Below, piece after piece: positions 32,047 through 39,465 of a stretch of DNA of 41,329 nucleotides. The position numbers were made by a program, and so were the translations under genes. Each line of letters opens with the position of its first letter. Position 1 is the stretch's first letter. This DNA comes from Terriglobales bacterium (lineage in GTDB: Bacteria > Acidobacteriota > Terriglobia > Terriglobales > Acidobacteriaceae), in the NCBI GenBank assembly GCA_015655195.1, contig JAATFM010000309.1, positions 1 to 41,329 of the forward strand, given 5' to 3'. The notes under the pieces are model-generated. The model saw only the letters and a list, made by a program, of their open reading frames with translations. It searched no databases and was not told the origin of the DNA.

Positions 32047-35000
32047 ATGCAGAAACACTATGGCCGCTTCTCGCGCCATCGACTGGGATTTTTGTGCCTT
32101 CTGGCAGGCGCGCTGCTGGCAGTTAGCTCGGCTCAGAGCGGCAGGCAGACCGCGACTGCACCTCAGGCCGCGTCTTCTCCGCAAACCGTTCAAAAGCCTG
32201 TCTCTCAGATCGTTCCCGCCGGTGGGTGGCTGCCGCAGCATTCGCGGATTCTGCCTTCGCATGCGCAACGCGTAAAGCAGGCACTTGACGCCATGCGCCA
32301 GCGCAACGCCATTCACGGCCAGGCGGCGGGTGTGCGTCCCGTGCCATTCGACAGCACCGCTCCCACGCCGTCACCGAACTTCGGCGGCTTCATTGGCGGC
32401 GTCTCCAGCTTTCCCGTGGCGCACCCCGTTAACTCCGATGACTCCAGTGGCTCTCCTGAGATCGTTTACGACGTTTCCGACGTGATTTCGGGCGACTTCA
32501 ACGGCGACGGCAAACTGGATGCGGCCGTGATTCAGGTCGATGGCTCCGTCGAAACGCTGCTCGGCGACGGCAAGGGCGGCTTTTCTGCTCCGGTCGTTAC
32601 TGCGGGCACGGACCAATTCTCTTTCGAAGGCAATTCCGCTGTTGCTGTGGATCTGAACGGCGATGGCAAGCAGGACATTGTGGCCTATGACGGCTACGAC
32701 ATTCTTGTCTGGCTTTCCAACGGTGACGGCAGCTTTGCCGCGCCGGTGTTTCCTTCTTATCAGTTCCTGAGCTATGCCAGCAATGCGGCCTTCGCGGTTG
32801 CGGACGTGAATGGCGACGGTTATCCGGACATCCTGATAGCTGGCAACGCGTCAAGCTCAGGCGCGGTTGCAATTCAAGCCCTGCTGAACACCGGCAGCGG
32901 AACCTTTGGCACGACGAACATTCCTACCACAACCTATACGGTTCCCTCCGGATTCACGGTTGACGTTCTGAACAACACGGCCAAGGTCGCGCAGATCAAC
33001 GGAAAGACGACGCTGATTTTTGCCGCGCAAGAGGCCGGCGAGTATGGCCCGCCGAACACCGTGGAGATATTTCAGGCCGCTTCCAATGGAGACGGAACGT
33101 TTACCTTCGCGCCCGCGCCGCTGGACATTCCCTCGATTCAGGGAACGGGCCTCGACTTCGGTTTCGGAATCAATACATCTCTGCTGATCGCCGATCTGAA
33201 CGGCGATGGCGCGCCCGACATATTGGTCGCACCGGGCGACGGCTCTATCTACACTGCGCTCGGTGAGGGCGGCAACGGATTTTCCACGCCGACGCTGGCC
33301 ATCAGCGGTTATTACTTCAGCGGCCCGACCCTGATTACGACCGACCTCGATGACGATGGTATCCCGGACCTTGTCGATGCCGAGTTCGAAGATGTAGCAA
33401 CCTTCCGCGGCAACGGCGACGGAACCTTTACGCCGGTTAATGCAGCTTTTGCCGGTGCCACCGGCAACTCCTCCGGATATACCAACTACCTGACGGCGAC
33501 GGCCTACGGCGACTTTAACGGCGACGGCCGGCTGGATTACGTCTCCGTGGACACCAACTACGGCGCTGGCGGCTTTTATGCCGGCCTTGGCGGCTTCAAC
33601 TTTTGCGCCGCAGCGCGGCTGGTCGATACCGGGGCAAACGATCAGGCCCCGGCATCGCCGTTTCAGTTGCTTGTCGAGTCCGCGCTTGATCTGAACGGCG
33701 ACGGAAAGACCGATCTCGTTGCCTTCAACGAGAGCGTCGGGCCCGGCGGCTATTCCCTCAAGGCTATCTCCGGCATAAACCAGGGTGGCGGCCAGTTCAA
33801 CTGGATTAATGCCCCCTCGCTTCTTAACCTGCCTATCAGCTCTTTCGGCGTCAGCCAGCAAGCCGCCGATTTCAACCACGACGGCAAGCAGGATTTGCTC
33901 CTTTACGGTGCCGACGGCGAATCTGTCGAGGGTATCGGCATCTGCCTTAACTGGTATGTCTACGTCGCAATATCGAACGGAGACGGAACCTTCCAGCAGC
34001 CCGTGCAATTGCAGCTTCCCAACCAGCCGGAATGTCCGAACTCTCTGGAGGGCTTCACCGTGGCGGATGTCAACGGCGACGGCAATCCCGACATTGTCTT
34101 CACTTACGGCAACCCAGGCTACTCTTCAATGTTCACGGGCGGTCCGCCCAGCGGTTATTACGTGGCGCTCGGCGACGGCACAGGCAACTTCCCGACAGTC
34201 AACTTCACGCCCTATGGCAACAGCATTGACTTGGCCGTTCTGGCGGATTTCGATGGCGACGGCTTCCCTGATCTCGTGCTCACGAACTTTCCGGACGGAA
34301 CCCATCCCGCGGTGAGCATTCTGCTCAATGACGGCACGGGAAACTTCGCCAACTTGCCGGCTAAGCCGATCAGCTATACGGAATACCCGGTCTATATGCT
34401 TGCCGGGGATGTGAACCAGGACGGCAAGCAGGACCTGCTGATAGCGACCGGCGGCAATTACGATGTCAGCACGCAGACACTCGATTCCACCGCATCTGGC
34501 ATCCTGATCTATCCCGGCAACGGAGACGGCACGGTGGGGACTTCCACGCTGCTCGATCAGGGCGAAGGCCCGGCGATTGCGCTGGAGGATTTCAATGGCG
34601 ACGGACTGCCGGATATTCTCGCGGGCCTATCCTATGACTTCAACACCACGCTGCCATCCGTCAGCGATCCGTACTACGGCGCTTCGCTGCTGCTGAACAA
34701 GGGCGGCGGAAACTTCGCTCCGCCGGTCAACACCCTTGTGCCGTATGGCGTGAGCTTTGTGACCGCAGGCAACTTCTACGGAGACGGCGTTGCCGACGCG
34801 CTGGAAGTGGACGGTGACGGCGCCACTCTGCTCATCAACCAGGGAGGCTCGGCTGTCGTGCTGAGCGCCTCCGATGCGGCCGTGGAACAGGGCGATTCCG
34901 TTGCGCTGACAGCCAGGGTGATTCCGAATCTGCCGGCGCGGCCTCTGCCGACAGGTCAGATCACCTTCTACGACGGAATGACGGCGCTTGGCACAGGCAA

Positions 35001-35652
35001 TATCGATGGCACCGGTGCGGCGAACCTTACCACGACGCAGCTTTCCGTAGGCACGCATACCATCACAGCGACCTACGCTGGCGACGCCAACTTCAACCCG
35101 GTTGCGCAATCTTCCGCGACAGTTGCGGTTGTGGTGAATGCGTTGCCGCCGGCCTTCACTCTTGCTGCCAGCTCCAGCACGCTCTCCATCAACCAGAGTG
35201 GCTCCAGCACGCTGACGCTCACGCTCACTCCCAACGAAACCTTCACCGGCAGCGTTTCGCTGGCCGCAAGCGGGCTGCCTGCTGGAGTCACGGCGCAGTT
35301 TTCGCCTGCCACCGCGCAGCTTACGGCGGGTCAGCCGGCAACGGTGACTCTGACAATCGGCGAGGGGTCGGCAAGCAGTCAAAGCGCAAGCACAGGCAAA
35401 TGGATGAAGGCGGGCGCGGGAATCAGCGTTGCCGGTCTGCTGCTCTTTGCTCTGCCTCGGCGTCGGCGCGCACTGCGCGGAATGCTGTTTCTGGCAGCGT
35501 TGGGACTGGCTCTAACCGTGATGCCGCTGATGGGATGCGGCGGCGGATCGGGTTCGGTAAAGACAGGGCAAACCCAAATCACGATCACGGCGACGCCATC
35601 GGTTTCCGGCCCCGCCGTGCAGGCGACGACGGTGACCTTGCAGGTTCAATAG
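32047..35652 (+). CDS. Exported FG-GAP/VCBS repeat protein with Ig-like domain and C-terminal membrane hairpin
   Basis: About twelve DxNGDGxxD-type motifs (DFNGDGKLD, DLNGDGKQD, DVNGDGYPD, DLNGDGAPD...), Ig-like ITFYDGMTALGTGNIDGTGAANLTTTQLSVGTHTITATYAGDANF. Confidence 0.9.
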   Translation: MQKHYGRFSRHRLGFLCLLAGALLAVSSAQSGRQTATAPQAASSPQTVQKPVSQIVPAGGWLPQHSRILPSHAQRVKQALDAMRQRNAIHGQAAGVRPVPFDSTAPTPSPNFGGFIGGVSSFPVAHPVNSDDSSGSPEIVYDVSDVISGDFNGDGKLDAAVIQVDGSVETLLGDGKGGFSAPVVTAGTDQFSFEGNSAVAVDLNGDGKQDIVAYDGYDILVWLSNGDGSFAAPVFPSYQFLSYASNAAFAVADVNGDGYPDILIAGNASSSGAVAIQALLNTGSGTFGTTNIPTTTYTVPSGFTVDVLNNTAKVAQINGKTTLIFAAQEAGEYGPPNTVEIFQAASNGDGTFTFAPAPLDIPSIQGTGLDFGFGINTSLLIADLNGDGAPDILVAPGDGSIYTALGEGGNGFSTPTLAISGYYFSGPTLITTDLDDDGIPDLVDAEFEDVATFRGNGDGTFTPVNAAFAGATGNSSGYTNYLTATAYGDFNGDGRLDYVSVDTNYGAGGFYAGLGGFNFCAAARLVDTGANDQAPASPFQLLVESALDLNGDGKTDLVAFNESVGPGGYSLKAISGINQGGGQFNWINAPSLLNLPISSFGVSQQAADFNHDGKQDLLLYGADGESVEGIGICLNWYVYVAISNGDGTFQQPVQLQLPNQPECPNSLEGFTVADVNGDGNPDIVFTYGNPGYSSMFTGGPPSGYYVALGDGTGNFPTVNFTPYGNSIDLAVLADFDGDGFPDLVLTNFPDGTHPAVSILLNDGTGNFANLPAKPISYTEYPVYMLAGDVNQDGKQDLLIATGGNYDVSTQTLDSTASGILIYPGNGDGTVGTSTLLDQGEGPAIALEDFNGDGLPDILAGLSYDFNTTLPSVSDPYYGASLLLNKGGGNFAPPVNTLVPYGVSFVTAGNFYGDGVADALEVDGDGATLLINQGGSAVVLSASDAAVEQGDSVALTARVIPNLPARPLPTGQITFYDGMTALGTGNIDGTGAANLTTTQLSVGTHTITATYAGDANFNPVAQSSATVAVVVNALPPAFTLAASSSTLSINQSGSSTLTLTLTPNETFTGSVSLAASGLPAGVTAQFSPATAQLTAGQPATVTLTIGEGSASSQSASTGKWMKAGAGISVAGLLLFALPRRRRALRGMLFLAALGLALTVMPLMGCGGGSGSVKTGQTQITITATPSVSGPAVQATTVTLQVQ

Positions 35653-35814
35653 TGATGCGGGCGCATGGGGCAGCGAGCCGGCAGGAATTTCTGCTATGCG
35701 AGCCGCACCCACGGAATGCAACTGGATGCGCGGGGTAAGGTTCTCGCTTCCACTGGCCCGCTGCCGGAGAGACGACGGAAAGCGGAAGAAAAATCTTTCG
35801 AGAGAGATACGGGA

Positions 35815-38800
35815 ATGAAGATGCAATTCACTGCGATGCGAAGAATCCATACGGCGCCATTCCTCATCGTGTTGCTGGCATTCGCGCTTATTGCGCCGGC
35901 GTCTTTGAGGGCACAGTTCGGCGCCGCTCCAGCTCCTCGGCTGACCGCGCCCATCGATGAGACGCGGCTCGTCCCGCTCAAAGGCAGCGTGCTGCCGGCG
36001 ATCCGCTCCCAGCAGTCCAGCGAGGCGGCTCCGGACGGCTTCAAGCTGGATAGGATGATGCTGCAACTCAAGCGCAGCGACGCGCAGCAGGCGAACCTGA
36101 AGCAGTGGCTCGACGACCAGCAGAATCCCAAGTCTCCGCGCTTCCACCAGTGGCTCTCGCCGCAGGAATACGGCTCCCGCTTCGGCGCCGCGCCGGAAGA
36201 CATCGCGACGATTACCGAGTGGCTGCAATCGCATGGCTTTACCGTCGATGCGGTCTCGAACGCCCGCAACATCCTTACCTTTTCCGGCACGCAGGCATCG
36301 TTGCGCAACGCCTTCCATACCGAGATGCGCGGCTACACCATCCGCAACGAGCATCACTGGGCCAACGCCTCCGAGGTGAAGATTCCCGCGGCGCTTGCTC
36401 CCGTGGTGGGCGGAATCGTTTCGCTCAACGATGTGCGCCGCCACGCCAATCATCGCGACCCGGTGCTGCTCAAAAAGAACGAATTGGGCAGCAAGTGGAC
36501 GCAGGTTGGCCAGTGGAGCCCGCAGGTAGTTGCGGCCAGCGGTAATCGCCCCGCGCCGCAGTTCACCGCTTACAGCGGCAATACGCAGGTTTACCTGCTG
36601 GCGCCATACGATTTCGCTACCGTCTACAACCTTCAGCCGCTTTGGAACGCTGGCCTGGATGGTACCGGACAGACGATTGCGATTACCGCGCGCTCGAATG
36701 TGAATCCGGCTGACATCGCCGCATTCCGTGCCGAATACGGCCTTCCCGCAACGAAGCTGAATGTGATCTTTCCCACTGGCGTCGATCCGCAAACAGGCGC
36801 GACGACCGGCGACTATAACGACGAGTCCGAGACCGACCTCGATGTGGAATGGTCGGGAGCCGTAGCTAAGGGCGCAACGATTGACCTGGTTGCGACGCCA
36901 AGCACAAGCACGACCGACGGCACTGATATTTCCGACGAGTACATTGTGGACGAAGATCTGGCGTCCGTGATGAGCGTCAGCTACGGCACTTGCGAGTTTG
37001 ACCTGCAACAGTCCGGTAACCTGTTCTTCTATGAGATCTGGCAGCAGGCCGCGGCTGAGGGAATCACCGTTACCGTTGCCACTGGCGATTACGGCCCAGC
37101 CACATGCGACGAGGATTTTGCGGCCGAAGGCGATACGGTAGCGATTGCGGGAGACACGGTGAACGGCATTGCCTCCACGCCGTATAACGTGGCAGTCGGC
37201 GGCACCGACTTCAAGACGTACAACACCGTGCCGGGCGAGTTCTGGAGCCCGACCAACGACCCGACAACGTTGGCCTCCGTGCAGGCTTACGTGCCGGAGT
37301 CGCCCTGGGATGACAGTTGCCAAAACCCGGAGCTTTTGGCCTGGCTGAACGCCAATGGCGGCGGCTATGCGAACACAGCGGCGGTCTGCGGGCTGGGCCC
37401 CACTATATATCAGAACTTTGAGGGCGGCGGCGGAGGCGCGAGCAATTGCATCAATGCCACCAGCCCCTATGAGCAGACCGAGTGCACGCAGGGCTATCCC
37501 AAGCCGTCCTGGCAGAGCGCGATTCCGGGCGTTCCATCGGACAATGCCCGCGACATTCCCGATGTCTCCCTCTTTGCCGCCAACGGGAATTTCAATAGCC
37601 TTTTGCCGTATTGCCAATCGGATGCGTTGGCAACGGGATCCACCTGCGCGACGAGCATTGAAGGAGCCGGTGGGACATCGTTCGCCTCGCCCGCGTTTGC
37701 CGGCATCATGGCAATCGTTAACCAGCAGATGCAGGGACCGCAGGGAGTGGCGAATTACTCGCTCTATAAGCTGGGAACGAAGCAGTTCAATGACAGTTCA
37801 CTGGCCTCCTGCACCACCTCGACCGTAGCCTCCGGCAATGCCTGCTACTTCTACGACCTGGCCGAGGGCAGTGACGCTGTTCCATGTAGTGGGGGCAGTT
37901 CCGGCAGCACGGGCTGCGTGAATCAGGTGCTGGGATGGAATGCCGGCGTGGGCTATGACCTTGCCAGCGGCATCGGCTCCGTCAACGCCTATAACCTTGT
38001 GACCGCATGGCCCTCCGCGGCTAGCAACCTGCTCACCAGCGCGACAAGCCTGACGGTCGCCCCGACAACGATATATGGCACCTCGCTGACCGCCAGCATC
38101 TCCGTCGCTCCCGCTTCCGCCGGCAGCAGCACTCCTTCCGGTCCGGTCGTGATTCAGGTAGACGGGCAAGTCTATAGCCTGGGAGCGGAACTCAGCAACG
38201 GCAGCACCACGGTTTCGATTCCCGCCATTCCGGTAGGCACACACCAGGTAACGGCGGCCTATGGCGGCGACGCGGTCTTTGCAGAGAGTGACTCGGCAGT
38301 ATCCACGCTCGTCGTCAGCAAGGCCACTCCGGCAGTGGCTCTCGCAGCCACGCGCGGTTCCGTGGCGCAAGGCCAGAACATCACTCTATCGGCCGCGCTG
38401 CAAGTCGTCACGGACGGAAATCCGCCGGGTGGCTCTGTGACATTTACCGACAACACGACTTACAAGGTGCTTGGCACAAGCCCGGTCGTTACCGCCACCG
38501 ATCCCGTCACAGGCCAGTCGGCCAGTGCGGCCACGCTTATCGTGGGGTCCGATGTGCTCGGCAGCGGGGCGAACGTGATCGCTGCCAGCTACTCCGGCGA
38601 CATCAGCTACAACCCCATCATCTCGAACACAGTCACCGCCACCTACGCGCAGCCGTTCACCGCCAGCATCACGCCCGGCAGCCTGCAGATGAGCGCCGCT
38701 GCCGTCGCCTCAGGCAGCGTCACGATCAACCTGACGCCCGCGGCGGGAAGCACGCTCCAGGCCTCGGCCTTTGGCTTCAATTGCGGCGGCTCTCTGCCTC

Positions 38801-39465
38801 CGGGCGTAAGCTGCTCCTTCAGCCCCGCGACCCTGGGCTCTTCCGGCGCGGTTACCTCCACGCTTACGGTGCAGGTCAACACCGCGCAGATTCCCACCGG
38901 AGCGCCGGAGGACCGGCACAGCGGACGCCTCGACATGATTGCGCTCAGCGGCCTTGCCGGCTTCCTGCTCACATTTGCCTTGGGCAAACGCAGCCGCAAC
39001 CAGCTCCGCCTGCTCGCGGCGCTTGTGGTTGGCGTAACGGCATCCTGTGTCGTGCTCGGCTGCGGCCACTCAGGCGCGCCGGCGCCCATTACTTCCGGAC
39101 CGGGCTCAACCGTCACGACGCTGGCGGCCTCCAGCCAGGCACCGGCCTATGGCAGCGCCGTAACGCTCTCGGCAAAGATTACGCCGGGCGCAAGCGGCGG
39201 CACTCCCACCGGCAGCGTCACCTTCCTCGATGGCGGCACGGCTCTCGGCACAGTCACGCTGGCCAACAGTACGGCCAGCTTCACAGACAACTCCCTGGCT
39301 CTTGGCGTTCATTCGATCACCGCCAAATACAGCGGCGATACCGGCGATCAGCCCTCCGTCTCCGCGGCTGACAGTGTGGATGTTACTTACTCCACCAACT
39401 TAACCATCAACGTGACCGGCAGCGACGGCTCTACTTCGGTAAGCCTGCCTGTCGCGGTGCAGTAA
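35815..39465 (+). CDS. S53 (sedolisin/kumamolisin-type) serine-carboxyl protease with pro-domain, Ig-like domains and C-terminal membrane hairpin
   Basis: Pro-domain LKQWLDDQQNPKSPRFHQWLSPQEYGSRFGAAPEDIATITEWLQSHGF; catalytic ESETDLDVEW, SVSYGTCE, GGTSFASPAFAGIMAIVNQ; start ATG 35815 preferred to 35665. Confidence 0.92.
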   Translation: MKMQFTAMRRIHTAPFLIVLLAFALIAPASLRAQFGAAPAPRLTAPIDETRLVPLKGSVLPAIRSQQSSEAAPDGFKLDRMMLQLKRSDAQQANLKQWLDDQQNPKSPRFHQWLSPQEYGSRFGAAPEDIATITEWLQSHGFTVDAVSNARNILTFSGTQASLRNAFHTEMRGYTIRNEHHWANASEVKIPAALAPVVGGIVSLNDVRRHANHRDPVLLKKNELGSKWTQVGQWSPQVVAASGNRPAPQFTAYSGNTQVYLLAPYDFATVYNLQPLWNAGLDGTGQTIAITARSNVNPADIAAFRAEYGLPATKLNVIFPTGVDPQTGATTGDYNDESETDLDVEWSGAVAKGATIDLVATPSTSTTDGTDISDEYIVDEDLASVMSVSYGTCEFDLQQSGNLFFYEIWQQAAAEGITVTVATGDYGPATCDEDFAAEGDTVAIAGDTVNGIASTPYNVAVGGTDFKTYNTVPGEFWSPTNDPTTLASVQAYVPESPWDDSCQNPELLAWLNANGGGYANTAAVCGLGPTIYQNFEGGGGGASNCINATSPYEQTECTQGYPKPSWQSAIPGVPSDNARDIPDVSLFAANGNFNSLLPYCQSDALATGSTCATSIEGAGGTSFASPAFAGIMAIVNQQMQGPQGVANYSLYKLGTKQFNDSSLASCTTSTVASGNACYFYDLAEGSDAVPCSGGSSGSTGCVNQVLGWNAGVGYDLASGIGSVNAYNLVTAWPSAASNLLTSATSLTVAPTTIYGTSLTASISVAPASAGSSTPSGPVVIQVDGQVYSLGAELSNGSTTVSIPAIPVGTHQVTAAYGGDAVFAESDSAVSTLVVSKATPAVALAATRGSVAQGQNITLSAALQVVTDGNPPGGSVTFTDNTTYKVLGTSPVVTATDPVTGQSASAATLIVGSDVLGSGANVIAASYSGDISYNPIISNTVTATYAQPFTASITPGSLQMSAAAVASGSVTINLTPAAGSTLQASAFGFNCGGSLPPGVSCSFSPATLGSSGAVTSTLTVQVNTAQIPTGAPEDRHSGRLDMIALSGLAGFLLTFALGKRSRNQLRLLAALVVGVTASCVVLGCGHSGAPAPITSGPGSTVTTLAASSQAPAYGSAVTLSAKITPGASGGTPTGSVTFLDGGTALGTVTLANSTASFTDNSLALGVHSITAKYSGDTGDQPSVSAADSVDVTYSTNLTINVTGSDGSTSVSLPVAVQ

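Follow-up and report, generated by a model that had tools for sequence, protein, structure and literature searches.

A split Ig-like fold with a membrane hairpin, a lipoprotein-type cysteine and an inserted Ig-like domain in the C-terminal tail of an S53 protease from Terriglobales

Introduction

The 41,329-nucleotide stretch of Terriglobales bacterium DNA analysed here (contig JAATFM010000309.1, hereafter the window) encodes an S53 protease whose C-terminal tail poses an architectural question: a membrane hairpin and a Cys are followed by an entire Ig-like domain, and the chain nevertheless ends in a short pair of strands. Which sandwich do these last strands close, that of the inserted domain or one begun ahead of the membrane? 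The original prediction had assigned the tail elements to the S53 protease, with a complete Ig-like domain after the Cys, and had proposed that the closing strands were kept at the very C-terminus and served a role of their own. The results presented below indicate that the tail is one Ig-like fold, interrupted by a membrane hairpin and a lipoprotein-type Cys, with a second Ig-like domain (the guest) inside it.

Layout of the S53 protease and its tail

The forward-strand frame at 35665-39465 is open over 1266 codons and encodes an S53 (kumamolisin-type) protease, with a pro-kumamolisin domain and a catalytic domain bearing the conserved Glu/Asp and GGTS Ser motifs (E339, D343 and the Ser motif at G619-S622, all invariant in alignment A1). 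A relative with 97% coverage, on a Granulicella tundricola plasmid, is annotated merely as 'Ig-like domain repeat protein' and suggests an acidobacterial origin of the window; no relatives were found in the viral contigs searched. All tail elements named in the original prediction are present, with the Cys at the position given there (Table 1). The pre-hairpin part begins with FTASITPGSLQMS at 38656 and ends with TLTVQVNT at 38883. The domain after the Cys is indeed complete: with the tail alone as query, aa 1154-1241 match Pfam PF16640 (Big_3_5) over its full length (E 2.3e-20, 73.4 bits against a cut-off of 35.5), and the terminal NLTINV...PVAVQ (aa 1245-1266) falls outside this match.

Table 1. 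Features of the S53 protease gene, its tail and the neighbouring tail in the window. Positions given for the class refer to the 99-position profile of hairpin-less repeats.
Feature	Coordinates	Strand	Basis or remark
Guest-less lipo-invert tail of the upstream FG-GAP protein (ORF 32047-35652)	35140..35649	+	structural comparison
S53 (pro-kumamolisin) protease gene carrying the tail	35815..39465	+	frame open from 35665; Met51 as probable start
Probable Sec signal peptide MKMQFTAMRRIHTAPFLIVLLAFALIAPASLRAQ	35815..35916	+	read from sequence
Pro-kumamolisin activation domain PF09286	36043..36432	+	E 1.9e-27
Two upstream Ig-like repeats (Big_3_5 type) preceding the tail	38032..38652	+	3 Big_3_5 stretches in the protein
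First two thirds of the split Ig-like repeat, ahead of the hairpin	38656..38883	+	positions 1-69 of 99 for the class
Transmembrane helix 1 (TM1) of the hairpin, IALSGLAGFLLTFAL	38938..38982	+	sequence; helix in model
Positive loop GKRSRNQLR	38983..39009	+	charge pattern of the class
Transmembrane helix 2 (TM2) / lipoprotein-signal-like h-region LLAALVVGVTASCVVLG, ending VVLG	39010..39060	+	sequence, class alignment
Cys (aa 1133, TGC), putative lipidation site	39061..39063	+	invariant, 22/22 rows of A2
Guest: complete Big_3_5 between Cys and closing strands	39124..39387	+	profile 2-88 of 88
Closing segment NLTINVTGSDGSTSVSLPVAVQ, forming the final strand pair of the split repeat	39397..39462	+	positions 74-99 for the class

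Two further features of these tails were observed. Ahead of the hairpin, the sandwich of guest-bearing tails has a pair of almost invariant Cys residues ten positions apart (FxC...VSC; C55 and C65 of window:38620-39462, at 38782-38784 and 38812-38814), which may form a disulfide, and the last residue of the tail (39460-39462 and its counterparts in relatives) is mostly Gln or Asn, the chain ending in VQ in 36, IQ in 14 and VN in 10 of 117 tails. Regarding gene neighbourhood, an FG-GAP gene with a guest-less tail (32047-35652) lies directly upstream of the S53 frame; a tail-bearing gene occupies the same upstream position at approximately 14 of 25 S53 genes of this genome, and in Granulicella tundricola an FG-GAP gene adjoins the S53 gene too, but on its downstream side.

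A catalogued but almost undescribed tail family

This type of tail is catalogued as NCBIfam NF058595 (invert_tail, 'lipo-invert putative C-terminal anchoring domain'; release 20.0, June 2026), and a literature search for it yielded no paper naming the tail. With approximately 70 convincing copies in the genome of the window, 48 of them above the cut-off, it represents a very common surface-anchor candidate there; it was detected in all 60 searched genomes of the genus and, at E 1e-6, in none of 14 control genomes. The S53 tail of the window reaches 23.9 bits when searched as a tail and 26.2 bits in the genome scan, short of the curated cut-off of 37. The match extends over no more than positions 2-91 of 113, owing to the domain that precedes the last strands. 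All parts of the model nevertheless occur in order, namely Ig strands, a transmembrane helix, a basic loop, a second transmembrane helix, the Cys and the C-terminal closing strands. A guest-less S53 protein of the same genome (L118) matches the model over its full length (2-113 of 113, 48.9 bits), and the upstream FG-GAP protein scores 29 bits, below the cut-off. The guest-bearing tail is a variant of lipo-invert and, equally, of an Ig repeat into which a membrane hairpin has been inserted. Guest-bearing tails constitute a class missed by the current NCBIfam model.

Guest-bearing tails as a recurrent class

Among 117 hairpin tails from the genome of the window and from relatives, a sample drawn from one class and including partial contigs, the length of the chain after the Cys has two peaks, 33-57 aa in 75 cases and 123-147 aa in 39; the outlying lengths are 257 aa in one tail and intermediates of 66 and 70 aa, of which the former is truncated by a contig end. 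The 77 near-complete S53 proteins comprise 40 with a guest, 20 with a plain tail and 17 with no tail. Each of the 40 carries one Big_3_5 domain between the Cys and the closing segment, and about 15 of them are paralogues in the genome of the window, where guest-bearing and guest-less S53 proteins (e.g., L118, L161 and L162) exist side by side. The idea that the insert is unique to the window gene was thus rejected, and the sharing of one arrangement by 40 S53 proteins argues that the insertion is not due to chance. When S53 homologues with and without the extra domain were compared, the closing strands were present in both.

It is conceivable that the guest is a functionless spare Ig repeat acquired by neutral accretion, given that these proteins hold many Big_3_5 repeats further upstream. 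However, in 38 of 39 proteins the guest is closer to other guests than to the repeats that precede it in its own chain and has therefore been inherited rather than freshly duplicated, which led to rejection of the guest as a recent copy of those repeats. The guest is also clustered on a tree of the S53 catalytic domain (a quick search), where it needs 6 changes, of which at least three are forced by well-supported branches; shuffles need 25.9. Together, the mutual likeness and the clustering indicate long retention of the guest, in more than one family, so neutral accretion appears unlikely, albeit with some residual weight.

The guest is not an S53-only trait, a candidate view rejected on the basis of non-S53 cargo in four proteins: L201, L207 and L210 carry Big_3_5 guests without a detected S53 domain, and L190 has a different domain, with no family assigned, at the guest site. 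In another family of the class (L150, L213 and L215), two ASH/choice-of-anchor-D domains occupy the loop after an ACGG/ACGS motif, and the chains still end in closing strands (e.g., TPPGTYSVNV...VQLSVTMQ), implying that the closing segment is independent of Big_3_5. A separate S53 protein, L208:4897-8439 (-), has a tail that lacks the usual closing strands and ends instead in the latter half of a Big_3-like domain (VAYSGDTNYAASTGSTSVSVQ); it is possibly a collapsed guest-bearing tail.

Membrane topology and the cysteine

The hairpin loops have a net charge of approximately +3.7 to +4.5 and the flanks approximately +0.1 to +0.5; for the class of the window tail, the values are +3.7 and approximately +0.1 to +0.4. 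This pattern puts the loop on the inner side of the membrane and the two flanks on the outer side. The Cys is preceded by Gly or Ala and followed by Gly or Ser in essentially all tails, a frequency biased upwards by a tail finder that demanded Cys. In the window, VVLGC fits a loose lipobox pattern and not [LVIM][ASTVI][GAS]C. The stricter pattern fits 17 of 40 guest-bearing tails versus 64 of 77 plain tails (p 1.4e-5, for related and hence non-independent sequences); relative to plain S53 tails (14 of 22), the guest-bearing class is not different (p 0.18). In L212, which has two ASH guests, Tyr replaces the lipobox Cys (VWVAYGGGG), and the tail lies near the C-terminus. Based on the orientation of TM2 and a motif typical of type II signals, the Cys is probably lipidated by Lgt, though perhaps not in every member.

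A further step has to be weighed, in which LspA cuts before the lipidated Cys to leave two pieces held by the split sandwich, with the guest on the lipidated piece. TM2 has the topology of a type II signal together with a positive n-region and the Cys, LspA is encoded in the genome, and a split sandwich would keep the pieces together; on the other hand, guest-bearing tails follow the lipobox less strictly and TM2 is not N-terminal, so full processing is a tentative minority reading. In its boldest form, the tail would contain an internal lipoprotein signal within an Ig fold, lipidated and cut by LspA, whose two pieces are joined solely by beta-strand complementation, while the loop after the Cys acts as a lipid-tethered docking site for repeated guests; this version is speculative and doubtful as a whole. 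If an internal lipobox were processed, the lipoprotein pathway would be acting midway in a folded domain. Conversely, the tail may be a plain two-helix anchor lacking a lipid, its Cys and Gly-rich stretch merely forming a structural turn. Such a view accommodates the relaxed lipobox and the Cys-to-Tyr relative with the same architecture, but it sits poorly with the near-constant Cys and its small neighbours, even allowing for the bias of the finder, and with the many plain tails that fit the strict lipobox, and is accordingly rather improbable. The preferred reading is an anchor consisting of the hairpin with a probably lipidated Cys.

Which sandwich the last strands close

Some S53 relatives also have the repeat of the split sandwich in a hairpin-less form, either as a tandem copy immediately ahead of the split one (L170) or as its replacement (L158), and eight such copies were combined into a 99-position reference profile for hhalign. 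The plain repeat matched no Pfam family above the cut-off in a Pfam search, and the few PDB sequence matches of its profile (RecA fusions, titin and Lmo2119) were implausible or marginal and were set aside. In 39 guest-bearing S53 tails, the pre-hairpin part aligns to repeat positions 1-69 (E 1.6e-16) and the last 26 residues align to positions 74-99 (P 1.2e-4, probability 55%); the last 30 residues of plain tails align to positions 70-99 (6.2e-8), and the guest domain gives no alignment to this profile (0.8%). The closing strands are therefore part of the split sandwich rather than of the guest. Scored by HMMER against their own shuffles, closing segments exceed them by a median of 2.1 bits in guest-bearing S53 tails (Wilcoxon 1.5e-7) and by 8.4 bits in plain S53 tails. 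On a 96-position model, the window tail matches 11-73 (21.9 bits) and 73-90 (5.0 bits), the latter being weak by itself compared to about 2.7 bits for shuffles, so that the assignment of this particular segment leans on the class.

Structural modelling points in the same direction. For the guest-less FG-GAP tail (35140-35649; input of two window rows), AlphaFold gave a mean pLDDT of 73, with strands within 6-75 and 143-169 mostly at 83-94 and a low-scoring hairpin between them; the closing strands are confident (83-89) and lie beside the pre-hairpin strands. In a Foldseek search, the entire model aligned to individual Ig/PapD-like domains of known structure, including 2r39 (TM 0.75 by target) and the PapD-like domain of HYDIN, 2e6j (0.69). 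In this modelled neighbour, the sandwich would thus be completed by strands from beyond the hairpin. For the S53 tail itself, the model made from its single sequence (pLDDT 46) is uninformative.

The terminal strands are thus kept whether a tail has no guest, a single Big_3_5 or two ASH domains, in line with the original prediction that they persist despite the insert. The role of their own that it ascribed to the terminal segment is supported as a structural one: the segment supplies the final strand pair of the split sandwich, corresponding to the portion (74-99) missing after the pre-hairpin part. The opposite view, that they are extra strands of the guest and the pre-hairpin sandwich is complete alone, is compatible with the low-scoring S53 model and with L208 ending in a Big_3-like half, but it is largely refuted and very improbable in light of a Big_3_5 that is complete without them, their occurrence with no guest or with different guests, an alignment that matches them, and not the guest, to the plain-repeat portion absent from the pre-hairpin segment, and the closed model of the guest-less tail.

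Proposed mechanism

The best explanation, held with good confidence, is that the envelope-anchor tail is an Ig repeat split by a hairpin, with the guest in the outer loop and the closing strands completing the original sandwich. In this scheme, the N-terminal protease would be exported via its own Sec signal, and the tail would serve as a cell-envelope anchor in which an Ig-like beta-sandwich repeat is interrupted just ahead of its last two strands by TM1, a cytoplasmic positive loop, TM2 and, at the outer surface of the inner membrane, a lipobox-like Cys. TM1 would stop translocation and TM2 would restart it, so that both halves of the sandwich would come to lie outside and close on each other. 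In the S53 lineage, a complete Big_3_5 would have entered the outer loop, after the Cys and ahead of the final strand pair, where it may act as a spacer or display module, and lipidation of the Cys would anchor the protease by the hairpin plus a lipid. The split-sandwich architecture is shown by homology and is predicted by modelling for the guest-less neighbour. Against this explanation stand the uninformative model of the S53 tail, the weak closing-segment match of single sequences, the relaxed lipobox of guest-bearing tails together with the Tyr of L212, and the half Big_3-like ending of L208_4897_8439.

The loop after the Cys evidently tolerates whole domains, and guest-bearing S53 proteins represent a natural insertion experiment that reveals which strands belong to the split fold.

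Comparison with known systems

The S53 tail shares partial Ig strands, the hairpin, the Cys and the closing strands with NF058595 and differs in the domain inserted before the last strands. As a member of Big_3_5 (PF16640), the guest is ordinary and complete, and only its position inside another domain is unusual. The region around the Cys resembles a type II lipoprotein signal of the Lgt/LspA pathway in its positive n-region, hydrophobic h-region, [GA]C and topology, whereas the version in the tail is internal, lying approximately 130 residues ahead of the C-terminus, in a protein with an N-terminal signal peptide of its own. Among C-terminal sorting signals, PEP-CTERM, GlyGly-CTERM and MYXO-CTERM consist of a C-terminal transmembrane helix followed by basic residues, with an invariant Cys in MYXO-CTERM (PMC11980579). 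The lipo-invert tail has the same succession of helix and basic residues and, like MYXO-CTERM, a Cys. However, the CTERM signals end in the cytoplasm after a single helix and have the Cys ahead of it, whereas in the lipo-invert tail a second helix returns to the outside, the Cys follows TM2 and folded sequence continues to the C-terminus.
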